A stretch of 44,218 bases of DNA, taken from the NCBI GenBank assembly GCA_019638285.1, contig JAHBUB010000006.1, positions 1 through 44,218 of the forward strand. The letters are read 5' to 3'. Under the pieces are notes generated by a model. The model was not told the DNA's origin. It worked only from the letters and a program-made list of their open reading frames with translations, and made no database searches. Positions 31,192 to 33,139 of the stretch are shown here, piece after piece (the first letter of the stretch is position 1; every line of letters begins with the position of its first letter). Position numbers and translations under genes: made by a program. The stretch comes from Cyclobacteriaceae bacterium (GTDB lineage: Bacteria > Bacteroidota > Bacteroidia > Cytophagales > Cyclobacteriaceae).

Positions 31192-31242
31192 GCAACGAAA
31201 GTAAGTGACATAATTCTCTTAACCAGAAAAATTTAAGCAATT

Positions 31243-31273
31243 TTTGTCGCAAAACTAAATTTGTCTAGTTTTG
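31243..31273 (+). promoter_or_regulatory. tRNA-Phe promoter, Bacteroidota sigma type
   Basis: TTTG (31243-31246), 19 bases, TAGTTTTG (31266-31273) is an excellent match to the TTTG-N19-TAnnTTTG consensus. The transcript should start near 31279, about 28 bases before the tRNA. A second -7-like box TAAATTTG (31256-31263) overlaps the spacer. Confidence 0.65.
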
Positions 31274-31276
31274 TGC

Positions 31277-31305
31277 CCCATCTAAAATGAGAGATGGGAT
31301 TTTTT
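31277..31305 (+). promoter_or_regulatory. Terminator-like hairpin in the tRNA-Phe leader
   Basis: CCCATCT (31277-31283) pairs with AGATGGG (31292-31298) over an 8-base loop, followed by AT and TTTTT up to 31305, one base before the tRNA. It sits between the predicted start site and the tRNA. It has the shape of an intrinsic terminator or attenuator, or could serve as a processing signal for the tRNA 5' end. Confidence 0.45.
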
Positions 31306-31306
31306 C

Positions 31307-31379
31307 GGTGACGTAGCTCAGTTGGTAGAGCAAAGGACTGAAAATCCTTGTGTCGGGGGTTCAATTCCCTCCGTCACCA
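31307..31379 (+). tRNA. tRNA-Phe (GAA)
   Basis: A complete cloverleaf of 73 bases: acceptor stem GGTGACG/CGTCACC, D arm GCTC-AGTTGGTA-GAGC, anticodon stem AAGGA/TCCTT with loop CTGAAAA (anticodon GAA), T arm GGGGG-TTCAATT-CCCTC, discriminator A. CCA is not encoded. Its last 16 bases are the start of a 49-bp sequence that is repeated 418 bp downstream. Confidence 0.97.
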
Positions 31380-31412
31380 CAAATGCCTCCTTTTCTTTAA
31401 GGAGGCATTTTT
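31364..31412 (+). repeat. Direct repeat copy 1: tRNA-Phe 3' end plus terminator
   Basis: The 49 bases from ATTCCCTCCGTCACC through the terminator stem and the first T bases recur at 31782-31830 with two differences (C to T in the acceptor strand, G to A in the hairpin). Copy 1 belongs to the intact tRNA. Duplicated tRNA 3' ends are the usual trace of integration at a tRNA gene. Confidence 0.9.
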
Positions 31413-31414
31413 TT
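31381..31414 (+). terminator. Intrinsic terminator of tRNA-Phe
   Basis: AAATGCCTCCTT and AAGGAGGCATTT form a perfect 12-bp stem with loop TTCTTT, followed by further T bases to 31414. It begins two bases after the tRNA discriminator base. Confidence 0.9.
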
Positions 31415-31727
31415 ATTAGACAAGGAGTGCTTTGTCTATATCCTTCAAAGCCAAAATAACGGTTCTTTCTATAAGGGATCAACTGATAATCTTTTGAGAG
31501 GATTTGATCAACACAACAGTGGAAAAGATTTTGCTACTCGAAGGTTTCTACCGTGGCGCCTAGTTTGGTATAGGTTAAAGAAAGATCGATCTGAGGCAGT
31601 AGCTCTTGAGATGAAACTAAAAAACCTGTCTGTTAATAGAACAATTGAGTTCACAGTAAAGCACCTTGTTACCGAAAACATCCGTGGGTTAATAATATAC
31701 CCAATCGAAAATACAGGGAAAAAATAG
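31407..31727 (+). pseudogene. GIY-YIG endonuclease reading frame without a normal start codon
   Basis: The frame is open from 31401 to the TAG at 31725-31727. It encodes a nearly whole single-domain GIY-YIG nuclease of the UPF0213/YhbQ type: CFVYILQSQNNGSFYKGST (GIY and YIG strands), NLLRGFDQHNSGKDFATRR with the catalytic-type Arg and the H-N-S-G-K motif, PWRLVWY, then RSEAVALEMKLKNL with the late Glu. Homologs start with ATG one or two residues before the first strand; here that place reads GAG TGC and no ATG exists. An ATT at 31407 is a possible but rare start, and the TTG at 31494 would remove the nuclease motifs. The frame fills most of a unit bounded by the direct repeat of the tRNA-Phe end. 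It is either a decayed gene or one with an unusual start. Confidence 0.7.
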
Positions 31728-31731
31728 TTCA

Positions 31732-31782
31732 ATCCTGAGGAGACGCACAGCGCCTGTCAGGATGCTGACCGAAGCGTCAGCA
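31732..31782 (+). repeat. Two adjacent hairpins at the tail of the GIY-YIG unit
   Basis: Hairpin 1 has arms ATCCTGA (31732-31738) and TCAGGAT (31757-31763) with an 18-base loop. Hairpin 2 has arms TGCTGAC (31763-31769) and GTCAGCA (31776-31782) around CGAAGC. They share one base, and the second ends exactly on the first base of the tRNA-end repeat. The layout recalls REP-type elements. Confidence 0.7.
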
Positions 31783-31830
31783 TTCCCTCCGTTACCACAA
31801 ATGCCTCCTTTTCTTTAAGAAGGCATTTTT
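31782..31830 (+). repeat. Direct repeat copy 2: pseudo tRNA-Phe 3' end plus terminator
   Basis: 47 of 49 bases match 31364-31412. No tRNA body precedes it. The change C to T would make a G-U pair in the acceptor stem, and G to A places one mismatch in the terminator stem. Confidence 0.9.
31799..31830 (+). terminator. Second terminator copy after the GIY-YIG unit
   Basis: AAATGCCTCCTT and AAGAAGGCATTT pair with one C-A mismatch around loop TTCTTT, followed by T bases. It would end transcripts leaving the GIY-YIG frame. Confidence 0.7.
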
Positions 31831-31903
31831 GTTTATGGCCTATTCCACTTGGGGGAAAGCATAAGTGAGGTGCTTATACTTGTTATTCAATTAGCTACTC
31901 TAT

Positions 31904-33139
31904 TTAATTCGCAATACTCATTGCTGCCACATACGCTGTGGTCCAAGCGGACTGAAAATTAAAACCCCCTGTCTCACCATCTATATTAAGTACTTCACCA
32001 GCAAAATAGATTCCTGGAACAATAGTGCTTTCACATGTATCGAGATTGATTTCGTCAAGGTTTACACCTCCACAGGTAACAAACTCTTCTTTAAAAGTAG
32101 TTTTGCCTTTAATCTCAAATTCACACCTCACAAGATTTTCGATCAATCTATTCAAATACTTCTTGGGCATCTCGTCCCAAATCTTTGTGGCCTCTATTCC
32201 CGCTAATGCACATACCCTTGCCCAGAGCCTGTTTGGTAAATCATACAATGCGTGAGCAATAATTTTCTGCTTCGGATGCCTGGTCTTATACTCATTCAAT
32301 TGCCCTCTCACTTCATCTTCAGTGCTTTGACCTGTCCAGTTGACTAGGACGGTGAATTCATACTTCTTTTGAAACAAGTATTCTGCTGCCCAAGAAGAAA
32401 GTTTTATTACAGCGGGTCCACTTAACCCCCAATGGGTAATTAATACTGGCCCAAGCTCCCGGAATTTAGTTCCTGCAATTTGCACGCTTGCCTTTTCTAC
32501 TGACACACCCATCAAATCTTTGAATCGTCCATTGCTATCATTAAAGGTAAAAAGAGATGGAATGGGACTTATCAGTTTATGCCCCAATTGCTCGACCCAT
32601 TGATAAGCCGACCGCTTTGGAGAGCCGCCACTGGCAATCAATATCTTCTTTGAAAAATAATGTTTATGGTTTGAACCTTCAATCTGAAATCCCCCCCCAT
32701 CCTCTCTTTCCACTTTAGTCACCTCACAATTCTTTTCAATTTTAATATTGAGTCTGTCTGCCTCCGAAAGAAAACAATCAACAATTGTCTTTGACTGATC
32801 CGTTATGGGGAACATTCTCCCGTCTTTTTCTGCTTTAAGTTTTATTCCTCTATGATCAAACCAGGCAACGACATCCTTGGCTTGAAAGCTTTTAAATAAT
32901 TTCTTCAGCTCTTTTTGCCCACGAGGATAATGCCTGGACAAGGGCGTGGGTTCAAAGCAATGATGTGTTACATTACAACGGCCTCCACCAGATACACTTA
33001 CCTTAGATAAAATTTTATTGGTCTTTTCAAGTATGAGCACACTCAGCTTTGGGTTGTTTGAGACAGCATTGATCGCTCCAAAGAAGCCAGCAGCTCCACC
33101 CCCGATCACAATTAAGTCAAATGATTCAGGTGTTTCCAT
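31904..33139 (-). CDS. HI0933/BaiN-family NAD(P)/FAD-dependent oxidoreductase
   Basis: A 411-residue flavoprotein of the HI0933/YhiN family. It has the FAD-binding Rossmann motif VIGGGAAGFFGAINA at the N terminus, the family signature SKVSVSGGGRCNVTH (about 43-57), ASGGSPKRSAYQW in the middle, and the C-terminal FAD motif GIYFAGEVLNIDGETGGFN. Some members reduce bile-acid intermediates or act on other substrates, but most have no known reaction, so I give no specific function. It is downstream of lysA on the same strand with a 17-base gap. Confidence 0.92.
   Translation of the reverse strand: METPESFDLIVIGGGAAGFFGAINAVSNNPKLSVLILEKTNKILSKVSVSGGGRCNVTHHCFEPTPLSRHYPRGQKELKKLFKSFQAKDVVAWFDHRGIKLKAEKDGRMFPITDQSKTIVDCFLSEADRLNIKIEKNCEVTKVEREDGGGFQIEGSNHKHYFSKKILIASGGSPKRSAYQWVEQLGHKLISPIPSLFTFNDSNGRFKDLMGVSVEKASVQIAGTKFRELGPVLITHWGLSGPAVIKLSSWAAEYLFQKKYEFTVLVNWTGQSTEDEVRGQLNEYKTRHPKQKIIAHALYDLPNRLWARVCALAGIEATKIWDEMPKKYLNRLIENLVRCEFEIKGKTTFKEEFVTCGGVNLDEINLDTCESTIVPGIYFAGEVLNIDGETGGFNFQSAWTTAYVAAMSIAN

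Follow-up and report, generated by a model that had tools for sequence, protein, structure and literature searches.

What occupies the interval between an intact tRNA-Phe gene and a second copy of its own 3' end? The question is raised by a stretch of 44,218 nucleotides from a Cyclobacteriaceae bacterium (contig JAHBUB010000006.1), called here the window. The intact tRNA-Phe(GAA), host gene of the element, was located by ARAGORN at 31307-31380 on the plus strand and scored 75.9 bits with the Rfam tRNA model. Its 3' end and a terminator hairpin (arms 31381-31392 and 31399-31410) form a first repeat copy at 31364-31412 on the plus strand, and the same 49 nucleotides return at 31782-31830 with 47 identical positions and a spacing of 418, which confirmed the duplication reported in the first-pass annotation. 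On the same strand, a GIY-YIG nuclease frame is open from 31401 to a stop codon at 31725-31727. Its domain (31428-31679) matched Pfam PF01541 with an E-value of 7.3e-14 over residues 10-77 of 108, and the score of 52.3 bits against a gathering cut-off of 22.6 places the frame in the GIY-YIG superfamily.

Two hairpins are placed on the plus strand between the frame and the second repeat copy: HP1 (31733-31762), a variable palindrome with a covarying stem, and HP2 (TGCTGACCGAAGCGTCAGCA, 31763-31782), the sole match in the genome at up to one mismatch. Comparison of the sequence with relatives identified a left T-arm piece, GTTCAA, at 31727-31732 (+), overlapping the stop codon by one base. A right T-arm and acceptor copy, TTCCCTCCGTTACCAC, follows the hairpins at 31783-31798 (+) with one mismatch to the tRNA, and is continued by the second terminator hairpin at 31799-31830 (+). 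Since GTTCAA stands 5' of the hairpins and TTCCCTCCG 3' of them, the pair lies inside a copy of the T-arm, and the hairpins interrupt a partial tRNA copy rather than merely separate the gene from the repeat. The earlier description of the interval as a GIY-YIG frame and two hairpins thus stands for these parts and has to be extended by the T-arm piece GTTCAA. In the same way, the second copy does contain the tRNA 3' end and terminator, as had been said, and is more than a 3' end, being a T-arm copy split by hairpins.

tRNA genes are classic docking sites for integrase-bearing islands. No tyrosine or serine integrase was found between the repeats: among the frames of at least 50 amino acids there, the nuclease is the sole one in sense orientation, and the others run antisense across it or across the tRNA. 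The statement that the unit has no integrase was therefore upheld. A tRNA-integrating island or ICE was rejected accordingly. A group I intron with a GIY-YIG gene was also rejected: the host tRNA is complete, Rfam models run over 31200-31950 gave no RNA family other than tRNA above the cut-off, group I introns included, and NCBIfam TIGR01453 stayed below its cut-off. The only sense gene of the unit being a GIY-YIG gene, a REPtron with a RAYT (Y1 HUH) gene was discarded as well.

The window copy itself is probably inactivated, because its usual start codon is absent and a near-invariant arginine is replaced. No in-frame ATG, GTG or TTG was found before 31494 in the window frame, whereas an in-frame ATG is present at the corresponding site of L148 (titled Flammeovirgaceae bacterium UBA2338), its closest relative. 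The window carries glycine in a column that is arginine in 131 of 134 open GIY-YIG domains and that we take to be the equivalent of I-TevI Arg27. The other motif columns of the open domains, to which, together with this one, we presumptively assign the catalytic roles, are conserved as well (Tyr in 129/131, Tyr in 134/134 and Glu in 132/134). Function has consequently to be argued from relatives.

A protein search gave matches in 47 of 96 genomes. We collected 134 distinct open GIY-YIG domains, mainly from the same genus and order, of which 126 came from the protein search, five from loci of a tRNA census and three from named loci. tRNA sequence adjoins 124 of the 134, with the same isotype on both sides in 101, compared with 17 and three in the same test on the opposite strand. 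The ten domains without adjoining tRNA sequence, several of which look like ordinary stand-alone GIY-YIG genes, were retained in the counts. A partial copy of at least 14 nt was present within 800 bp of 70 of the 97 tRNAs having a GIY-YIG domain at 150 bp or less, of 5/25 tRNAs with the domain at 150-1000 bp, of 1/13 tRNAs without GIY-YIG within 1 kb (a small control), and of 0/135 shuffled tRNAs; this excess is not due to chance. The census of two genomes showed such copies at 2/27 (G000) and 4/26 (G041) tRNAs without a GIY-YIG gene, and a hairpin was present in all five that were read among these 6/53. Phylum-wide, a profile search at 1e-13 matched 75 of 148 genomes; the best 30 loci, the window's included, had a tRNA within 400 bp in 25 cases and a partial copy of at least 14 nt in 22. 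A one-off tandem duplication was ruled out, since the arrangement is repeated at many tRNAs and in many genera with tRNA copies beside the homologous genes, and the minimal unit proposed for this locus proved to be far more general than had been supposed. At least six draft contigs (L009, L014, L026, L074, L151 and L193) start or stop at a unit, so that counts of units and of empty sites drawn from drafts are lower bounds.

Read across these loci, a unit combines a nuclease gene with one intact tRNA and with a partial copy of that tRNA, which palindromes break up; in its working form the GIY-YIG gene codes for about 80-110 amino acids and is accompanied by one or two lineage-specific palindromes that split the copy. 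Two polarities were observed. In one, the intact tRNA is followed by terminator, gene and 3' copy (for example Phe, His, Pro(UGG) and Leu(CAA)), and in the other a 5' copy and the gene precede the intact tRNA (for example Arg in L024 and L081, Glu in L142 and Gly in L086), with the region 5' of the tRNA duplicated as well in L142. Units also form tandem arrays with a period of about 320-390 bp, and gene-less partial copies bearing hairpins do the same, with a period of about 78 bp at Thr(UGU) (L175) and as three copies 121 bp apart at Leu(UAA) (L199). Every array that was read (L012, L018, L029, L175, L199) holds one intact tRNA, the additional copies being partial and interrupted by hairpins.

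Some loci depart from this plan. L153 carries at 2412-2470 a gene-less remnant (the end of HP1, HP2 and the tRNA-Phe 3' end), directly flanked by the intact tRNA-Phe on one side and by a complete unit on the other. In L228 (990-2200), several repeats of about 180 bp stand 3' of the tRNA-Ser(UGA) of G148; each contains the tRNA 3' end and a terminator, most lack the nuclease gene, and they resemble the tyrT repeats of E. coli. In L004 (1504-1803) the GIY-YIG frame continues into the tRNA-Asn copy, and annotated proteins of the family can therefore bear tRNA-derived C-terminal tails.

We examined the inserts that interrupt the tRNA copies. There were 193 junction records, 148 of which have an insert folding into a hairpin that spans it; as some records are overlapping chainings of one copy, a deduplicated set was used for the analysis of sites. 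Of the 51 distinct insertions of a hairpin that cost the tRNA copy no bases, 37 are flanked on both sides by positions of a D, anticodon or T loop, for an expectation of 31% (binomial p 2e-9), and the enrichment persists when the set is collapsed to distinct tRNA sites (23/36, p 6e-5). The other 14 pure insertions are not wholly within a loop, and some hairpins substitute for an arm of the cloverleaf, for example the whole anticodon arm in the 26|44 class. The site recurs between genomes, as for Ser(UGA) 36|37 in six loci and Leu(CAA) 65|66 in three.

The hairpins of the Phe type covary. In 15 of 19 hits (the four omitted are a partial copy, a hit in coding sequence and two terminator copies that lack HP1), 96.8% of the cells were paired, and both sides had changed in 10 of 17 pairs, a value reached in 0 of 500 shuffles; seven of these pairs belong to HP1 and three to HP2, which, unlike HP1, had been selected by a pattern demanding near-complementary arms. 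Further pair types were not above the shuffles (153/500). With up to one mismatch, HP2 occurs in 6 of 58 genomes as a single copy each, five times at known Phe units and once at a contig end (G026, L193) where the Phe 3' copy adjoins the same oxidoreductase gene. An HP1- or HP2-like hairpin also stands as the tRNA-Phe terminator in several genomes (L007 1457-1500, for example TGCTGACCGAAACGTCAGCATTTTTT; L039 and L006 just 3' of tRNA-Phe), as if element hairpins had turned into the terminator of the host tRNA.

The exact 16-nt core of HP2 was found in 7 of 395 genomes, the window included. In another family it belongs to a unit at tRNA-Ser(UGA), and the GIY-YIG gene of that unit, compared with the 134 domains, matches a Phe-type one best; in G144 it belongs to a gene-less hairpin pair in a D-loop copy of tRNA-Asp, the tRNA-Phe of this genome (L230) carrying a 3'-truncated GIY-YIG gene. 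Matches in four genomes of one genus (f35/g69; L260-L263, near 1501) have neither tRNA nor GIY-YIG sequence in the 3-kb locus; they were counted as unrelated and, being four of the seven, run against a clean association of HP2 with tRNAs. In L154, from a MAG titled Flavobacteriales, a Phe-clade nuclease and a compensatorily changed hairpin pair lie inside tRNA-Arg(CCG), the T-arm of which (GGGGTTCGATTCCC) is nearly equal to that of tRNA-Phe (GGGGTTCAATTCCC).

Other hairpin families behave less uniformly. CCTGCC..GGCAGG hairpins occur at sites 22, 26, 42 and 55 of tRNA-Arg, so that the family tracks the protein lineage and the site varies; the sequence CCTGCCTGCCGGCAGGCAGG was found at 12 places in 8 of 56 genomes, with tRNA pieces around eight places and none near four. 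TCCCG..CGGGA was found in four genomes with mixed placement. In G041, 13 of its 17 places are at the Thr(UGU), Pro(AGG) and Leu(UAA) arrays and four elsewhere, and in G048, which has ten places, four of the six inspected are at tRNAs. The loci of both G042 places and of the single G000 place contain no tRNA, and the reversed control pattern outnumbers TCCCG..CGGGA in G000 (four against one). A generic dispersed REP was ruled against on the ground that HP2 occurs once in each of its 6/58 genomes, at the Phe unit, and CCTGCC..GGCAGG mainly at tRNAs.

The GIY-YIG genes are under purifying selection: dN/dS had a median of 0.12 and a maximum of 0.222 for the 24 of 81 pairs with finite dS, within-clade pairs not being independent. 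A nuclease tree built from 73 columns, with 56 of 130 inner branches unresolved, requires 23 changes of tRNA amino acid over 124 labelled rows, compared with 76-90 in 200 shuffles. The two genomes surveyed have a single tRNA gene for nearly every anticodon, and this agreement between clade and tRNA is therefore partly expected by descent in place. The protein consists of a GIY-YIG domain without a separate DNA-binding part. Its profile is nearest to UPF0213 (1zg2, E 2e-15; 1ywl, 1e-12), followed by the structure-specific endonuclease SLX1 (7cq2, 7e-7), and I-TevI matches it marginally. For the L148, L018, L029 and L024 proteins, the NCBIfam scan gave nothing above cut-off, PHROGs gave weak matches, and PADLOC gave weak partial matches to PDC-S14 and HEase, short of an anti-phage assignment. 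With L148 as query, the homologues in phage (two) and plasmid (seven) records were all distant, the best in the phage collection being a 39% match, and these searches thus did not identify a carrier.

Does the unit come and go at a given tRNA? The gene 5' of the window tRNA, the FeS gene, was used to find the locus in other genomes. Among 30 loci, tRNA-Phe adjoins this gene in 22, all of the genus, of which nine have GIY-YIG sequence (truncated in at least three) and 13 are empty as judged by domain, copy and HP2, one of them (L062) with a 14-nt tRNA match nearby. Allelic empty sites at the nuclease locus, which are expected of a homing endonuclease and had been asked for at this tRNA, are therefore present, with the close pair L037/L039 as an example. 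Between the close relatives G010 (empty) and G025 (occupied), divergence starts at the tRNA 3' end. On a tree of the FeS gene, 29 loci (13 empty, five remnant and 11 full, the last including one frameshifted and one contig-end-cut locus) require at least eight changes of state, and clustering of occupancy on this tree was not beyond chance (55 of 300 shuffles were as low).

In the two closest occupied pairs, the identity of the GIY-YIG genes follows that of the neighbour gene (88 versus 85% and 93 versus 92%), so that inheritance looks vertical there; over 36 pairs the two identities gave a Pearson coefficient of 0.74 and a Spearman coefficient of 0.26. Beyond the Phe locus, one lineage is found in other tRNAs and in distant taxa. 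tRNA-Phe is identical in 16 loci that have or have had the unit (a 17th, L010, has no tRNA in the locus) and is the same in 12 of the 13 empty loci, which speaks against an altered-target immunity in the intact tRNA.

The origin of the tRNA copies was approached by comparing 3' copies with the tRNAs of their own and of other genomes. All 72 scored copies were nearest to the tRNA of their own genome, a set preselected for likeness to it; a looser selection gave 71 own, one tie and 15 other, and the eight of these 15 that are among the matches listed were all shifted-register readings. Replacement by a foreign tRNA end was not seen in either set. Gene conversion or local duplication would leave such own-genome likeness as well. 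We also compared what follows the intact tRNA with what follows the last 3' copy. In 28 of 60 loci the two sequences are unrelated, the outcome expected of a unit that brings a terminator along and pushes the previous one aside; in the other 32 they are related, which fits tandem growth or local duplication. Of the proposal that the unit supplies a replacement tRNA end and terminator, the terminator thus finds some support and a foreign tRNA end does not. The broader suggestion of a homing mobile unit at a tRNA gene gains from the empty sites and the recurrence, and loses from the vertical appearance of the closest pairs and the lack of altered-target immunity.

Taken together, we regard it as fairly probable that the unit in the window, itself probably dead, belongs to a new family of GIY-YIG/palindrome units that are nested in tRNA genes across the Bacteroidota and would work like free-standing homing endonucleases. 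The nuclease would cut either in a tRNA loop or at the palindrome cognate to the enzyme, and the break would be repaired by homologous recombination through the tRNA-derived segment that is common to every naive copy of the gene. Repair would insert or duplicate the unit and leave one complete tRNA, and the palindrome would mark the inserted end and stop that copy from serving as a tRNA or as a fresh target. The element would thereby act like a free-standing GIY-YIG homing endonuclease such as the phage enzyme SegB. In this scheme cutting by the nuclease, the tRNA as its cut site and transfer of the units are all inferred from sequence comparison, and its weak point is how the intact tRNA is protected from the unit's own nuclease.

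The hairpins allow a different division of roles, in which the palindrome is the mobile part, as in REP systems, the GIY-YIG protein serves to mobilise it, as a dedicated nuclease that also works in trans, and the loops of folded tRNA genes or cruciforms are the landing places. We consider this credible, if short of probable. Such mobility would account for a hairpin family that follows the protein lineage over four Arg sites (22, 26, 42 and 55), for Phe-type HP1-HP2 pairs in Phe, Arg and Ser and, gene-less, in Asp, for the preference for loops, for the gene-less tandem copies at Thr and Leu and for the SLX1-like nuclease sequence; however, the palindromes are few and mainly at tRNAs, where dispersed REPs would be common elsewhere, and the unit has no RAYT-type gene. 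A related proposal, which we make tentatively, is that of a selfish element aimed at tRNA shape: a structure-specific GIY-YIG nuclease and a co-diversifying palindrome would enter the single-stranded or cruciform loops of folded tRNA genes, bringing along or copying tRNA sequence in such a way that an intact tRNA is always kept, and giving rise to hairpin-only copies in trans. Such an element would be a GIY-YIG counterpart of RAYT/REP spread over the tRNA genes of the whole phylum.

Mobility might also be absent altogether, the nuclease gene being a long-standing resident beside tRNAs and the repeats arising from slippage and unequal crossing-over. The agreeing identities of GIY-YIG and neighbour genes in the two closest pairs, the likeness of 3' copies to their own tRNA and the frequency of arrays fit this view, which is nevertheless unlikely, because slippage can neither place covarying lineage-specific palindromes in tRNA loops nor yield the 5'-copy polarity; the Phe-type lineage and its hairpins in different tRNAs of distant taxa, and the 28 of 60 loci with unrelated downstream sequences, also count against it. 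That the nuclease serves the host by driving tandem amplification of tRNA loci in the manner of SegB, for dosage or as decoys against tRNA-cutting toxins, appears rather unlikely: arrays with a period of about 320-390 bp and purifying selection would suit it, and in phage T6 tandem amplification of segB with tRNA-Tyr defeats Septu (PMC13096335, in the part available), but a single intact tRNA with partial, interrupted extra copies does not raise dosage, and occupancy of the Phe locus is patchy and includes remnants. Quite improbable, finally, is a role at the RNA level, with the interrupted copy as a tRNA-like leader or trailer controlling the nuclease message or as the RNA substrate of the nuclease. 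The presence in several units (L024, L101, L107, L113, L140) of an ATG at most about 6 nt away from the tRNA or from its copy and the frequent exchange of a cloverleaf arm for another hairpin (the 26|44 class) point that way, yet the copies are truncated on either side, lie variously 5' or 3' of the gene, and persist without it.

We therefore keep the reading of homing units nested in tRNA genes as the preferred one. An integrase-less, single-domain nuclease seems to exploit tRNA genes repeatedly while sparing them, the palindromes marking the loop insertion point. If this is right, the units offer a natural set of nucleases, palindromes and targets for testing how GIY-YIG enzymes choose DNA, and they bear on the survival of minimal elements in essential genes and on the source of pseudo-tRNA repeats. 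The family would also explain many small Bacteroidota GIY-YIG genes and probably some contig breaks at tRNA loci.

No description of tRNA-nested GIY-YIG/palindrome units was found among the titles and abstracts listed by searches of the open-licence PMC literature, the nearest system being SegB. The best sequence relatives of known structure, the UPF0213 and SLX1-like GIY-YIG nucleases, are stand-alone cellular enzymes for which we know of no tRNA association. The rtT repeats of E. coli tyrT are tandem and contain a tRNA 3' end, like the units described here; unlike them, to our knowledge, they have no nuclease gene and no palindrome in the tRNA copy. In the accessible part of PMC1564403, the three mentions of tRNA do not concern small GIY-YIG genes adjacent to tRNAs. 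REP/RAYT REPtrons, as far as the portion of PMC3733652 at hand describes them, share with the units a small nuclease gene, short lineage-specific palindromes, doublets and gene-less copies, whereas their enzyme is of another class and the palindromes of the units are few and concentrated in tRNA copies instead of dispersed. SegB, which is enriched near tRNAs, is a free-standing homing endonuclease of the GIY-YIG class from the tRNA region of phages T4 and T6, and the tandem unit amplified in T6 measures 718 bp and comprises segB and tRNA-Tyr (PMC13096335, available sections). According to the same sections, SegB is like the units in having a GIY-YIG gene adjoining tRNA genes of many isotypes, short homology between the tRNA and the end of the nuclease gene, and tandem repeats of tRNA and nuclease (PMC13096335). 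It differs in being phage-borne, whereas the units lie in bacterial genome assemblies, code for a single domain of about 80-110 amino acids and typically carry palindromes inside the partial tRNA copy.
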